Assembly (NCBI RefSeq): GCF_014058705.1
Contig: NZ_CP059692.1
Span: 1,307,001 to 1,371,000 of the forward strand
DNA length: 64,000 nt
Direction: 5' to 3'
Source: Aureimonas mangrovi
Lineage (GTDB): Bacteria; Pseudomonadota; Alphaproteobacteria; Rhizobiales; Rhizobiaceae
The notes under the pieces were generated by a model. It worked only from the letters and a program-made list of their open reading frames with translations, did no database searches and was not told where the DNA came from. Below, one piece after another: positions 25,198 to 34,742 of this stretch. Every line of letters starts with the position of its first letter. The stretch's first letter is position 1. A program made the translations under genes and the position numbers.

Positions 25198-26237
25198 TGG
25201 CGAACAACGGCGAGGGCGAAGGCCCGGCCGATGGCGGACCTGTCCGCCACGTTCCGGTGCTCCTGCGGCAGGTTCTGGAAGCGCTCGCGCCGAGCGTCGG
25301 CGAGACGGTGGTCGACGGCACCTTCGGTGCGGGCGGCTATTCGCGCGCCATCGTGGAGGCGGGCGCCAACGTCATCGGCATCGACCGCGATCCGACGGCG
25401 ATCGCGGCGGCCGGGCCGGTCATCGCAGCCTCGCACGGTCGTCTCAGCCTTATCGAGGGGCGCTTCGGCGACATGGCCGAGATCGTCGACGAGGCGGTCG
25501 GTGGGCTGGTCGACGGCGTCGTCCTCGATATCGGCGTCTCTTCCATGCAGATCGATACGGCGAGCCGCGGCTTCTCCTTCCAGAAGGACGGCCCGCTCGA
25601 CATGCGCATGAGCGGCGCGGGCCCGAGCGCGGCCGACGTCGTCAACATGCTCAAGGTCGGCGATCTGGCGCGTGTCCTGTCCTTCCTTGGCGAAGAGCGA
25701 CAGGCGGGGCGTATCGCGCGCGCCATTGAGGCGCGCCGCACCGAGCGACCCTTCGAGACGACGCTGGATCTCGCCGCGGTGGTCGGACGTGTCGTCGGGC
25801 GCAAGCCTCAGGACAGGATCGACCCCGCCACGCGCACCTTCCAGGCGCTGCGGGCCTACGTGAACGACGAGCTGGGCGAACTGGCGCGCGCGCTGGTGGC
25901 GGCCGAGCGCATTCTGAAGCCGGGCGGCCGGCTCGTCGTCGTCACCTTCCATTCGCTCGAGGACCGGATCGTCAAGCGCTTCATCCGCGAGCGTTCGTCG
26001 GCTCCCTCCGGCTCACGACATTTACCGGATGTTCAGCACGTTCCGGCAACCTTTTCAGCACGCAACAAGGCGGAAGCGGGCGACGAGGCGGAGATCGCGG
26101 CCAACCCCCGTGCCCGCTCGGCCAAGCTGCGTGCCGCCACCCGCACCGATGCGCCTGCGCGCACAGGCCCGGACGCGGAGGATTTCATCGAACTACCCGC
26201 CCTTGCCGATCTGCCGCGCTCCGGAGTGACCCGCTGA
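25194..26237 (+). CDS. rsmH: 16S rRNA (cytosine(1402)-N(4))-methyltransferase
   Basis: 347 residues from ATG 25194, overlapping mraZ. SAM-dependent enzyme that methylates N4 of C1402 in the 16S decoding centre. Family motifs: [27 protein letters not shown] as SAM motif [15 protein letters not shown], a [14 protein letters not shown] segment, [13 protein letters not shown] and [14 protein letters not shown]. Second gene of the dcw cluster, as in most bacteria. Confidence 0.96.
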
Positions 26238-26596
26238 TGCTGAAGACGCTCGACATCGTTCTCGTCGCCCTCGTGCTCTTCGCGACCACCTGGACCTTCG
26301 GCGTGAAGCACGAGGCGGAAATCCTCGAGGAGCGCCTGCGGGTCGTCGAGCGAGGCATCGCGCACGAGAACGAGACGATCTCTCTTCTCGAAGCCGACTG
26401 GAGCCTTCTGAACAGGCCCGAGCGCCTCCAGCGCCTCGCGACCACCTTCGAGGGCGACCTCGGTCTTCGCCCGCTCGAGCCGCGCCAGATGGTGACGGCG
26501 CAGGAGCTGCCGGCCGAGCCCGCGCGATTCGAGGTGACGCCGGACGCCGCTCTCGAGAGCTTCGCAGCCAACACCGCGCAACGGGCGGTGAGATGA
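26237..26596 (+). CDS. ftsL: cell division protein FtsL
   Basis: 119 residues: short cytoplasmic start, one membrane helix (LDIVLVALVLFATTWTFGV), a coiled-coil segment (ILEERLRVVERGIAHENETISLLEADW) and the alpha-type motif LLNRPERLQRLA. FtsL forms the FtsQLB part of the divisome and helps activate FtsWI. ATGA overlaps at both ends with rsmH and ftsI. The gene is normal in form although its operon partner FtsI lacks an active site. Confidence 0.9.
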   Translation: MLKTLDIVLVALVLFATTWTFGVKHEAEILEERLRVVERGIAHENETISLLEADWSLLNRPERLQRLATTFEGDLGLRPLEPRQMVTAQELPAEPARFEVTPDAALESFAANTAQRAVR

Positions 26597-28017
26597 AGGC
26601 GGGATCTGCCCCAAAAGCCACTTTCGCCGCCAAGGCGCGCGCCTCGCTCCTGCGCCTTGCTGCCCGGCGCGCTGCGAGTGAGACGCCGAGCGTGCCGGTC
26701 ACCGGCTTCGGACGCCGTCGACGTGCCGAGCGCCCGCGCCACCGGCCGCGTCACATCATGGCGATCGGCCTGTTCTGCACTGTCTACGCCGTGATCGGCG
26801 GCCGGCTGCTCCTGTGGGGCGCGGAGACCGAAATGGCGCCCGAGACCTTCGTCGTCACGCAGGCGCAGATCCCGCGGCCGGATCTTCTGGATCGCAACGG
26901 CGAAATCCTGGCGACCGACATCCGATCCGCCTCGCTCTTTGCCGAGCCGCGCCGCATTGCCGACGCGGACGAGGCCGCCGAGCGCCTTCTCACGGTGCTG
27001 CCGGACCTCGATCGCTCGACACTCCTGGCGCGGCTTTCCAGCGAAGCGGGCTTTGCTTGGCTACGCCGCGAGATCAGCCCCCGCCAGCAGCGGGCGATCC
27101 ATGCGCTTGGCATCACCGGGATCGGCTTTCGCACCGAAAAGCACCGCTTCTATCCGGGCGGAAACGCCACCGCCCAGGTCCTGGGCCGTGTCGATGCGGA
27201 CAATCAAGGCATCGCCGGCATCGAGAAGTATCTCGACGAGGCGGGTGCGGTCGCGGTTCGCACGGCCGTCTTCTCGGCTCTCGCCGAGCCGGCCCCCGTG
27301 AAGCTTTCACTCGATCTGCGCGTCCAGCATATTCTGAGTGATGAACTCGCGGCGGCGATGGAGCGCTACAAGGCGTCGGCGTCCGGCGGCATCATCCTCG
27401 ACGCACGCACCGGCGAAGTCATTGCGATGGCGTCCCTGCCGCATGAGGAGGCGAACGATACGGTTCGCGCGGCCGAAGCCGGAACCGGCTCCCGGGTGCC
27501 CGACCGGGCCGCTTTGCCGCGTGACTGGAACGACATCGACGCCATCGCTTCGGCACGCGGCCCTTCGGCGCTGCGTGCGGTTGCGGCGGCGGCCGCGCTG
27601 GTGAACGGCGGCGATTATCTGACGCCGACCTTCCTGCCGCGCACGCTCAACGAGGCCGATGCGCTCAAGGTGCCGGTGATCGACGCGAGCGCGTCCGACG
27701 AGATGCGCCGGATCATGAGCCTCGGCGGAGCGTGGGATGCCGCCGTTCCGGGATACGATGTCGGCGGAAGGGCGCAGGTGGCCGATCGCGACGGCAACAG
27801 CGTCAGCTCTTATCTTGGTGCCTTCCCGATGAGCCAGCCGCGATACGTCGTCCTCGTCACGCTGGACGAGCCGAGGAGTGCCGCCGGTCGGGCAGCGCGG
27901 GCGGCGGGCCGGCACGCGGCCTCGACGACCGGTGCGATCATCCAGCGTGCGGCGGCCTTTCTCGGCGTGCGCCCAAGCTTCGGCGACGAGGGTCGCTCTC
28001 TTCTCGTCTCCTACTGA
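26593..28017 (+). CDS. ftsI: FtsI/PBP3-like division protein lacking the transpeptidase active site
   Basis: 474 residues, about 100 fewer than usual FtsI. Basic cytoplasmic N-terminus, one membrane helix at about 55-76, PBP dimer/pedestal domain from residue 89 (RPDLLDRNGEILATDI, then HRFYPGGNATAQVLG) and the transpeptidase start (VKLSLDLRVQHIL, GGIILDARTGEVIAMASLP at 265-283). Residues 290-310 then jump straight to the block equivalent to KRWGEINTMTISFGHG, here PRDWNDIDAIASARGP. The roughly 110-120 residues that carry SxxK and SxN are missing, and no SxxK exists anywhere in the domain. The KTG position reads VGGRAQVAD (391-398). The C-terminal part (YLGAFPMSQPRYVVLVTLDEP) is kept. There is no frameshift or stop. 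It should be unable to bind beta-lactams or crosslink peptidoglycan, so a scaffolding role is inferred. Confidence 0.85.
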   Translation: MKAGSAPKATFAAKARASLLRLAARRAASETPSVPVTGFGRRRRAERPRHRPRHIMAIGLFCTVYAVIGGRLLLWGAETEMAPETFVVTQAQIPRPDLLDRNGEILATDIRSASLFAEPRRIADADEAAERLLTVLPDLDRSTLLARLSSEAGFAWLRREISPRQQRAIHALGITGIGFRTEKHRFYPGGNATAQVLGRVDADNQGIAGIEKYLDEAGAVAVRTAVFSALAEPAPVKLSLDLRVQHILSDELAAAMERYKASASGGIILDARTGEVIAMASLPHEEANDTVRAAEAGTGSRVPDRAALPRDWNDIDAIASARGPSALRAVAAAAALVNGGDYLTPTFLPRTLNEADALKVPVIDASASDEMRRIMSLGGAWDAAVPGYDVGGRAQVADRDGNSVSSYLGAFPMSQPRYVVLVTLDEPRSAAGRAARAAGRHAASTTGAIIQRAAAFLGVRPSFGDEGRSLLVSY

Positions 28018-28194: not shown

Positions 28195-29643
28195 ATGAAA
28201 CTGGGGGCCTTGGCGGACGGGACGGGAGCGAGCGGCGCGGCGGCCGACGTCGAGATCGCGGGTCTCACCGCCGATTCGCGCGCCGTGCGCCCCGGTTTCC
28301 TCTTCGCCGCCCTGAAGGGCTCGCGCGCCGACGGGACGCTTTTCGTGCCGCAGGCCAGGGAGATGGGCGCCGCCGCAGTGCTCGCGGCCGACAACGCGGT
28401 TCTTGAAACGAGCCTGCCGGTTCTTCGCGCCGCCGATCCGCGCCGCGCGCTCGCCCTGATGGCAGCGCGGCTGGCGGGGCCGCAGCCTGCCGACATCGTC
28501 GCCGTCACGGGCACCAGCGGCAAGACTTCGATCGCCGCCTTCACCCGGCAAATCTGGGCGCGCGCAGGTCATGCCGCCGCCTCGATCGGCACGACAGGTC
28601 TCGTCTCGCCGAACCGCACCGAATACGGCTCCCTGACGACGCCCGATCCCGTCGCCTTGGCTGCGCTCATGGCCGAACTCGCCCGCGAGGGCGTGACGCA
28701 CGTTTCGATGGAAGCGTCGAGCCACGGGATCGAGCAGCGCCGCCTCGACGGCGTGGACTTGAAGGCGGCCGCCTTCAGCAATCTCGGCCGCGACCATCTC
28801 GACTACCATCCCGACATGGAAGATTATTTCGCGGCAAAGATGCGCCTGTTGGACACGCTGCTCCCGAAGGGACGACCGGCGGTGATCTTCGCCGACGACC
28901 GCTGGTCGGAGCGGGCGATCGCGGCGGCCGGCGCGGCGGGCGCGAAAGTGATGACGGTCGGGCGCGCCGGCGCCGACCTCAGGCTCATGCGCCTCGAGCA
29001 CGAGCGCCGCCGGCAGATCGCCGAGATCGAGGCGGAGGGGCGCATCCACCGCATCGTCCTGCCGCTCGCCGGCGAGTTCCAGATGTCGAACGCGATGGTG
29101 GCGGCGGGCCTCGCGATCGCGACGGGTGTCGCTGTCGACGACGCGCTGGCGGCGCTGGAGCATCTGGAAGGTGCGCCCGGACGCCTCGACCTCGCCGCGA
29201 CCACCGCCGAAGGCGCGCCGATCTTCGTGGACTACGCCCACAAGCCGGAGGCTCTGGAGAACGTGCTCGCCTCCGTACGTCCCTTTACGACGGGCCGCGT
29301 CATCGTCGTCTTCGGCTGCGGCGGCGATCGTGATCGCGGCAAGCGGCCGATCATGGGCGAGATCGCCTCGCGGCTCGCCGACATGGTGATCGTGACCGAC
29401 GACAACCCGCGTTCCGAGGTTCCCGCCGAGATTCGCGCCGAGATCATGGCGGCCGCGAGCGGCGCCGAGGAGATCGCGAACCGGCGCGAAGCCATCCGTC
29501 TGGCCGTCATGCGCGCGCAGGCCGGCGACACGGTCGTGGTGGCGGGCAAGGGGCACGAGAACGGCCAGACGGTCGGCACTCAGACACTGCCGTTCAGCGA
29601 TCACGAAGTCGTTCGCAGCGCTGTTCTGGAGGCTGCGCGATGA
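28195..29643 (+). CDS. murE: UDP-MurNAc-L-Ala-D-Glu:meso-diaminopimelate ligase
   Basis: 482 residues. ATP-dependent cytoplasmic ligase adding the third residue of the stem peptide. P-loop VTGTSGKTS, the [12 protein letters not shown] segment, DHLDYH and the DDNPRSE motif, whose DNPR marks selectivity for meso-diaminopimelate. A 177-bp gap separates it from the defective ftsI, longer than any other gap in the first part of the cluster. Overlaps murF by 4 bp. Confidence 0.96.
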
Positions 29644-33572: not shown

Positions 33573-34742
33573 ATGGCCAGCCGCGCCAAGAAGGGTTTGA
33601 TCGCCGAGTGGTGGTGGAGCGTCGATCGCTGGTTTCTCGCCGCGTTCCTGATCCTCATGGTCGGCGGCATGGTGCTCTCCTTCGCGGCAAGTCCGCCGGT
33701 GGCCGAAAGGCTCGGCATCGACGCGTTCCACTTCGTCAAGCGCCACGCGGTCTTCCTCGTCCCGTCGATCGCGGTGATGCTGGCCGTTTCGCTGCTTTCG
33801 CCGCACGGCATCCGCCGTCTCGCCATCTTCATGCTCGGCGGTTCGCTCGTCGTCATGGTGCTGGCCCTCTTCTTCGGAATGGAGGTGAAGGGCGCGCGGC
33901 GGTGGATGGAGTTCGGCCCGATCACCGTCCAGCCGTCGGAGTTCATGAAGCCTGCCTTCGTGATCGTCTGCGCCTGGCTCTTCGCCGAGCGTGCGCGCCG
34001 GCCGGAGATTCCGGGTAATCTTCTCTCCCTCATCCTTCTTTTCACTGTCGCGGCGCTCCTCGTCGCCCAGCCCGATTTCGGGCAGACGGTGCTGACCGCA
34101 GGCGTATGGGGCGGCCTCTTCTTCATGGCGGGCATGCCGTGGCTGTGGATCATGGTGCTCGGCGCGCTCGGCGTCTTCGGCATCGGCGGCGCCTACGTGG
34201 CACTGCCGCACGTCGCCTCGCGCATCGACCGCTTCGTTACCGGCGAGGGGGATACCTTCCAGACCGACACGGCGCGCGAGGCCATCATGAGCGGCGGGTG
34301 GTTCGGCCAGGGCGCGGGCGAGGGTACCGTCAAGCGCCTCCTGCCTGACAGCCACACTGACTTCGCCTATGCCGTCATCGCCGAGGAGTTCGGCATCATC
34401 TCCTGCATGGCGCTCACGGCGATCTTCTGCTTCATCGTCATCCGCGGCCTCTCGGTCGCCTTCGAGCAGCGTGATGTCTTCGCGCGCCTTGCGATCTCCG
34501 GCCTCGTGATGCTGTTCGGCATGCAGTCGATCATCAACATGGCGGTGAATCTGCAACTCATGCCTGCCAAGGGCATGACGCTGCCCTTCATCTCCTATGG
34601 CGGCTCGTCGATGATGGCGGTGGCGATTTCCGCCGGCTGCGTCCTGGCGCTGACGCGCAAGCGCGCCGACAACTCGTCCCAGACCGACAGGCTGATGGAG
34701 CGGGGCGTGGCGTTCGGGGGCACGGCCTACGGTGTTCGTTGA
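33573..34742 (+). CDS. ftsW: peptidoglycan glycosyltransferase FtsW (SEDS)
   Basis: 389 residues from ATG 33573, with AAGGGG 8 bases upstream; GTG 33564 overlapping murD is an alternative. SEDS polymerase of the divisome, multispanning. Conserved segments: GARRWMEFGPITVQPSEFMK, PDFGQTVL, LLPDSHTDFAYAVIAEEFG and FISYGGSSMMAV. The active-site region of the fourth periplasmic loop is intact. FtsW normally works as a pair with FtsI; here the FtsI of the same operon lacks its catalytic site, so another transpeptidase must supply crosslinking. Confidence 0.94.
   Translation: MASRAKKGLIAEWWWSVDRWFLAAFLILMVGGMVLSFAASPPVAERLGIDAFHFVKRHAVFLVPSIAVMLAVSLLSPHGIRRLAIFMLGGSLVVMVLALFFGMEVKGARRWMEFGPITVQPSEFMKPAFVIVCAWLFAERARRPEIPGNLLSLILLFTVAALLVAQPDFGQTVLTAGVWGGLFFMAGMPWLWIMVLGALGVFGIGGAYVALPHVASRIDRFVTGEGDTFQTDTAREAIMSGGWFGQGAGEGTVKRLLPDSHTDFAYAVIAEEFGIISCMALTAIFCFIVIRGLSVAFEQRDVFARLAISGLVMLFGMQSIINMAVNLQLMPAKGMTLPFISYGGSSMMAVAISAGCVLALTRKRADNSSQTDRLMERGVAFGGTAYGVR

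Follow-up and report, generated by a model that had tools for sequence, protein, structure and literature searches.

In the FtsWIQBL structure of Pseudomonas aeruginosa, FtsI meets FtsW via its transmembrane (TM) helix and linker, while FtsL contacts the pedestal of FtsI and makes a further contact on the transpeptidase (TP) domain, according to the accessible part of the report (PMC7614612). In Bacillus subtilis, the catalysis of the division class B penicillin-binding protein (PBP) PBP2B is dispensable, PBP3 supplying it, whereas cells still require the PBP2B protein, presumably for the activation of FtsW (as cited in the available portion of PMC12713402). The same partial text describes SpoVD S311A of Clostridioides difficile, a point mutant made by engineering and concerning the asymmetric septation of sporulating cells: SpoVD partly supports septation without catalysis, for which it depends on its SEDS partner and on another class B PBP, PBP3 (PMC12713402). 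Closer in descent is Agrobacterium tumefaciens, another member of the Rhizobiales, which has one FtsI in the dcw cluster (PBP3a) and a second elsewhere (PBP3b), and FtsW with no RodA/PBP2. Both of its FtsI proteins take part in septal synthesis, and they are synthetic lethal with each other, in the sections of the source at hand (PMC8546619). Finally, the catalytically inactive LytM factors are cell-wall proteins that regulate others without catalysis, as far as the excerpted source goes (PMC8416486).

The dcw ftsI gene of Aureimonas mangrovi (genome G000) invites comparison with each of these systems. As with inactivated PBP2B of B. subtilis, a division class B PBP would be needed for something other than catalysis, and a paralog would cross-link; unlike that laboratory mutant, as presented in the part of PMC12713402 available, the state described here is natural, involves an active site that has been removed or rewritten, and arose twice. 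The C. difficile case differs likewise in being engineered, and also in concerning sporulation septa, and the LytM factors belong to a hydrolase family, not to the penicillin-binding proteins. Unlike in A. mangrovi, both FtsI proteins of A. tumefaciens are treated as transpeptidases, the dcw-encoded PBP3a being the major one, in the accessible sections of PMC8546619. A literature search, with subscription journals mostly outside its scope, listed no natural dead class B PBP that could be recognised from titles and the beginnings of abstracts.

The gene lies at 26593..28017 on the forward strand of the 64,000-nucleotide stretch that was analysed (the window) and is an open frame of 474 residues without an internal stop. 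It sits between ftsL (26237..26596, +), whose end overlaps its start by ATGA, and murE (28195..29643, +), the next gene downstream; an intact frame in the native place was what the original prediction had claimed, and both points hold. By tree, the gene is orthologous to the dcw FtsI of its relatives, as it groups inside the clade of 21 dcw rows of the genus (100/99), apart from the clade of second copies. The membrane anchor and linker (residues 53-94; 26749..26874, +) are conserved in the alignment, from which the anchor was assessed, and they are followed by the pedestal (residues 95-237; 26875..27303, +), with a Pfam PBP_dimer match at residues 94-205. The TM helix, linker and pedestal are thus retained, i.e., the first three of the four FtsI contact parts named in the available portion of PMC7614612.

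The TP domain is in a very different state. Only the second half of the Pfam Transpeptidase profile is matched (profile 144-291; residues 308-437), with a score of 45.8 bits, where the intact dcw copy in the sister genome G003 reaches 196.4. In this remnant (residues 238-474; 27304..28014, +), the path from SLPHEE (281) to PRDW (309) takes 28 residues vs 127 in G003. The 99 residues missing between SLP(H/D) and PR(D/E)W (at residues 281-309; 27433..27519, +) are those in which intact orthologs carry SxxK and SxN, and both motifs are lost with them. The third motif, with VGGRAQVAD at residues 390-398 (27760..27786, +), reads VGGRAQVADR where G003 has VGGKTGTADK, all four letters of KTGT being changed to RAQV. 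The TP domain contains no SxxK, the sole S-x-x-K string of the protein being SAPK at residue 5, on the N-terminal side of the membrane anchor, and no S-x-N occurs anywhere in the protein. The shrunken central block, the altered KTG position and the missing SxxK had all been read from the sequence beforehand, and the comparison with intact FtsI rows bears these readings out. It is thus confirmed that the dcw FtsI of this bacterium lacks the whole active site, and with all three motifs missing the protein is an FtsI by descent and not a transpeptidase.

An assembly or sequencing error that took out the middle of an ordinary ftsI, which the original prediction had named as a possible refutation, would produce such a gap, and nothing beyond the deletion itself speaks for it. 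The genome is a single contig of 3,485,124 bases with a completeness of 99.52%, and the gene carries three more in-frame block losses relative to G003 further on, of 4, 4 and 7 residues. Four or more in-frame losses that are separate from one another, substitutions besides, the rewriting of KTG among them, a long branch and, in another genome of the genus (G014), the loss of the same motifs from a full-length gene make such a slip very unlikely.

A second catalytic FtsI elsewhere in the genome had been postulated, and one is indeed encoded at C1:1680373-1682145 (-). This protein of 590 residues carries intact STFK, SSN and KTGT motifs and is one of five transpeptidase-family matches in A. mangrovi, the others being the window gene and three longer proteins that are read as class A PBPs from their sequences; no further class B PBP is found among the five. 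It is called FtsI-type because it is 49% identical to the dcw FtsI of G003 over 540 residues. Among NCBIfam models, SpoVD, PenA-type PBP2 and FtsI rank above MrdA, none of them over its cut-off, and FtsI and MrdA are nearly level (163.3 vs 161.8 bits), the dcw FtsI of G003 behaving much alike. Lying outside the dcw cluster with intact motifs, it may be regarded as PBP3b-like by its relation to the second copies of Rhizobiaceae. The only SEDS glycosyltransferase match in the genome is the FtsW of the dcw cluster (33573..34742, +), and each of the five genomes examined likewise has one; MreB-profile matches are present (best in A. mangrovi 3.9e-16) and are taken for putative DnaK/FtsA-type proteins. 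The wall-synthesis set thereby resembles that of Agrobacterium, as outlined in the accessible text of PMC8546619.

Matches to the second FtsI also occur on 168 plasmid records (e.g., NZ_CP069305.1 and NZ_CP098808.1), 77 of them typed conjugative. The 30 of these 168 that are listed, from Ensifer, Sinorhizobium and Shinella, are 54.9-58.7% identical to it, and the others may include other class B PBPs. Plasmids may act as vehicles for a spare division transpeptidase.

The genus was surveyed with 21 genomes, A. mangrovi included, one per species. All three motifs are kept in 19 of the 21 dcw FtsI copies, and in 45 of the 47 FtsI rows aligned in total (the 21 genus dcw copies, 14 second or third copies and 12 others); the two exceptions are the same in both counts, namely the window gene and the dcw FtsI of G014. 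The latter (L044 / L054:7348-9213, contig C9 of G014) is of full length and dead by point changes, with STFK replaced by TTAT, SSN by SSA and KTG by QTG, the third motif reading QTGT with the three following residues lost where KTGTAEK is expected. Two further FtsI copies in that genome are both intact. On the question of whether relatives share the deletion, the answer is divided: the 99-residue loss is absent from the other 20 genomes of the genus, and an independent loss of the active site is found in G014. A second FtsI outside the dcw cluster is present in 10 of the 21 genomes, four of which have a third, and both dead dcw copies fall among these ten. A link between a dead copy and a second FtsI is sensible and is not statistically shown, because the probability of this by chance is 0.21 (calculated by hand).

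The two losses are placed on separate branches by the flanking genes. In a tree of rsmH, murE, murF, mraY and ftsW (2062 columns, 6 genomes), A. mangrovi pairs with G003 (100/99) and G014 with G005 (100/100), and a single shared loss is rejected (AU p 8.2e-11). With FtsI alone, in a test on 27 of the 47 rows from which the extra (second and third) copies and six distant rows were excluded, a clade of the two dead genes is not rejected (p 0.07), both being on long branches; the FtsI tree places G014 with G005, G011 and G013 (99/96) and leaves the placement of A. mangrovi, G003 and G017 unresolved. The dead state counts as two changes on this 27-row set. A count of one change in the larger FtsI tree was set aside, as 31 rows there belong to no group. 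The active site has thus been lost on two separate branches of the genus.

The history of the second copy is less straightforward. A single clade (100/100) holds all second and third copies, and within it the copy of A. mangrovi pairs with that of G017 (100/97). The flanking genes, by contrast, place G017 with G014 and G005 and reject a clade of A. mangrovi, G003 and G017 (p 0.008). The sister G003 (C1, 3.82 Mb) has the dcw FtsI and no second one. In one possible history, a redundancy was settled differently by the two sisters: G003 would have dropped the second copy, and A. mangrovi the catalysis of the dcw copy. Given the conflict between the two trees, a transfer of the second copy between lineages may also have occurred, and G003 may have lacked it from the start.

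Beyond the genus, no further dead dcw FtsI is apparent by score among the matches listed for 247 family genomes, a survey from which dead copies that are point-mutated and otherwise similar could escape. Among these matches, G283 is the only other multi-match genome with a best match weaker than that of A. mangrovi, and it was dismissed as a further case, its two matches being contig-end fragments. Thirteen genomes (twelve weak scorers and G163) yielded 18 loci in which the motif letters are kept wherever covered, three loci covering none; motifs were read directly in these 18 loci and in the 47 FtsI rows only. A scan of the contig collection gave 8 loci, the nearest 42% identical. The family genome G163 itself carries four FtsI-type genes (C1, C2, C12 and C18; L079, L092, L095 and L096), all with intact motifs and 55-60% identical to the FtsI of G003.

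A gene that has lost its active site may simply be decaying. In that case, the second FtsI would have taken over all functions and the dcw copy would have been drifting since a recent loss, its frame held open by the scarcity of stops in G+C-rich DNA. The window gene does evolve 4-5 times faster than its sister, with an end branch of 1.02 vs 0.23 in G003. Moreover, 2.8-3.6 stops are expected over the neutral phase that decay needs, and none would arise by chance in 3-6% of cases, so that the absence of stop codons (P 0.03-0.06) is too weak as a sole argument in a G+C-rich gene. Selection was assessed with a codon model of our own on 18 of the 21 genus rows and the 422 codons present in A. mangrovi. 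With free branch lengths, omega is 0.168 in A. mangrovi and 0.151 in G014 vs 0.059 elsewhere, and omega = 1 is rejected for both (2dlnL 48.9 and 37.0, respectively). The corresponding domain fits give 0.236 and 0.177 for the anchor and pedestal (2dlnL 14.6 and 8.0) and 0.068 and 0.118 for the TP remnant (2dlnL 46.5 and 31.3), omega = 1 being rejected throughout, most weakly in the pedestal of G014; several of these fits ended on reaching the maximum number of iterations, and they do not separate branch length from omega (lengths of 2.6 vs 11.8 for A. mangrovi in the two domains). For this reason, branch lengths were then fixed from 1990 codons of five flanking genes in 5 taxa, with one inner branch at its bound. 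Under fixed lengths, neutrality (omega = 1) is once more rejected in each domain of each branch; omega in A. mangrovi is 0.193 for the anchor and pedestal and 0.278 for the TP remnant vs 0.055 and 0.054 in G003, so that the rate is also raised in the pedestal, while the values for G014 (0.187 and 0.152) are not clearly apart from those of its intact sister G005 (0.19 and 0.08). Overall, the window gene shows neither stops nor frameshifts, and its omega is raised about 3-5 fold and stays far below 1.

Since the free-length fits give the opposite domain order, the contrast between domains rests on the fixed-length fit and on the columns that are near-invariant in the 45 intact FtsI rows. These columns were examined because a branch-wide omega could mix long constraint before the loss with recent drift. 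Of the 46 in the anchor and pedestal, the window gene keeps 45 and changes one, while among the 87 of the TP domain 32 are deleted, 18 changed and 37 kept (37 of the 55 undeleted). The difference between domains in changed vs kept columns has a Fisher p of 5.9e-5, ranging from 5.9e-5 to 0.044 over nine settings of threshold and distance from indels. A pedestal drifting at the rate of the remnant would be expected to show about 10-15 changes among its 46 columns, and at most one has a probability of 3e-7 to 1e-4; intact rows left out singly have at most 8 near-invariant columns changed. The pattern in G014 is not domain-specific, unlike that of the window gene: 8 of 46 anchor/pedestal and 14 of 86 TP columns are changed (p about 1), with the catalytic letters among the losses. 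This even loss in G014 and the raised omega speak for decay. Against it stand the rejection of neutrality, the single pedestal change, a frame that stays open through all length changes with the ATGA overlap preserved, and open frames in two lineages. The pattern is thus one of constraint and not of neutrality, as had been suggested, and decay is in our view an unlikely account, though one to be taken seriously.

A gene without an active site that is under purifying selection, tightest over the anchor and pedestal, in a genome with a full second FtsI and in a genus where the loss recurs, probably encodes a retained pseudo-transpeptidase that pairs with FtsW and FtsL, the second FtsI performing the cross-linking. 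This pairing is proposed because the TM helix, linker and pedestal are kept, the enzyme is lost and an intact paralog is present. The dead FtsI would enter the divisome through its TM helix and pedestal, contact FtsL and the sole FtsW, and give FtsW the partner that it requires both for position and for allostery. Septal cross-linking would be left to the PBP3b-like FtsI, so that the two jobs of one FtsI would be divided between two proteins. Membership of the FtsW/FtsL complex and activation of FtsW are inferred. The role proposed beforehand, that of a structural component of the divisome or an activator of FtsW, agrees with the anatomy and with published work on engineered dead class B PBPs. 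Against this reading count the fast evolution of the gene, its pedestal included, the even pattern in G014, the contact of FtsL on the TP domain, described in the accessible part of PMC7614612, and the pedestal domain of the second FtsI, which might pair with FtsW alone. The same conserved anchor and pedestal, lost active site, intact paralog and single SEDS protein would also suit a regulatory or decoy subunit, which would compete with the intact FtsI for FtsW/FtsL, damping or timing septal synthesis, or would provide a beta-lactam-proof slot in the divisome, FtsW activity being independent of it. These data fit an activator equally, and simple competition does not obviously require the native dcw place; a decoy appears improbable. 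Returning to the pseudo-transpeptidase partner, a wider version can be put forward tentatively, with slightly less than even confidence: two or more distinct lineages within a single genus would have a natural two-protein FtsI, in which the dcw copy is a dedicated non-catalytic FtsW/FtsL partner, division transpeptidation falls solely to paralogs encoded elsewhere, and evolution has separated scaffolding and activation from cross-linking.

Two features of the A. mangrovi chromosome may be recorded alongside. The dcw cluster looks split, as the ORFs listed after murB (window 38659 onward) do not include ddl, ftsA or ftsZ; ddl, ftsZ and lpxC were recognised by eye about 150 kb away (C1:1480000-1494000, L097), with an ftsA-like MreB-profile match beside them, the corresponding match lying 13-14 kb from ftsI in G003, G005, G014 and G017. 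Besides, no 16S rRNA match was obtained in the single-contig chromosome, with a control that was positive in only 9 of 14 genomes. Some lineages carry the rRNA operon on a small plasmid, which would fit this result.

Engineered point mutants have served to ask whether the division transpeptidase has to cross-link or acts mainly by turning FtsW on. The two natural losses, in bacteria that have one SEDS protein each, seem to amount to such a separation, which suggests that the non-enzymatic division job of FtsI can be kept alone. With these genes, the parts of FtsI that the activation of FtsW needs can be tested on natural material, and they warn that beta-lactams may have another target in a cell than the product of the dcw gene annotated as ftsI.
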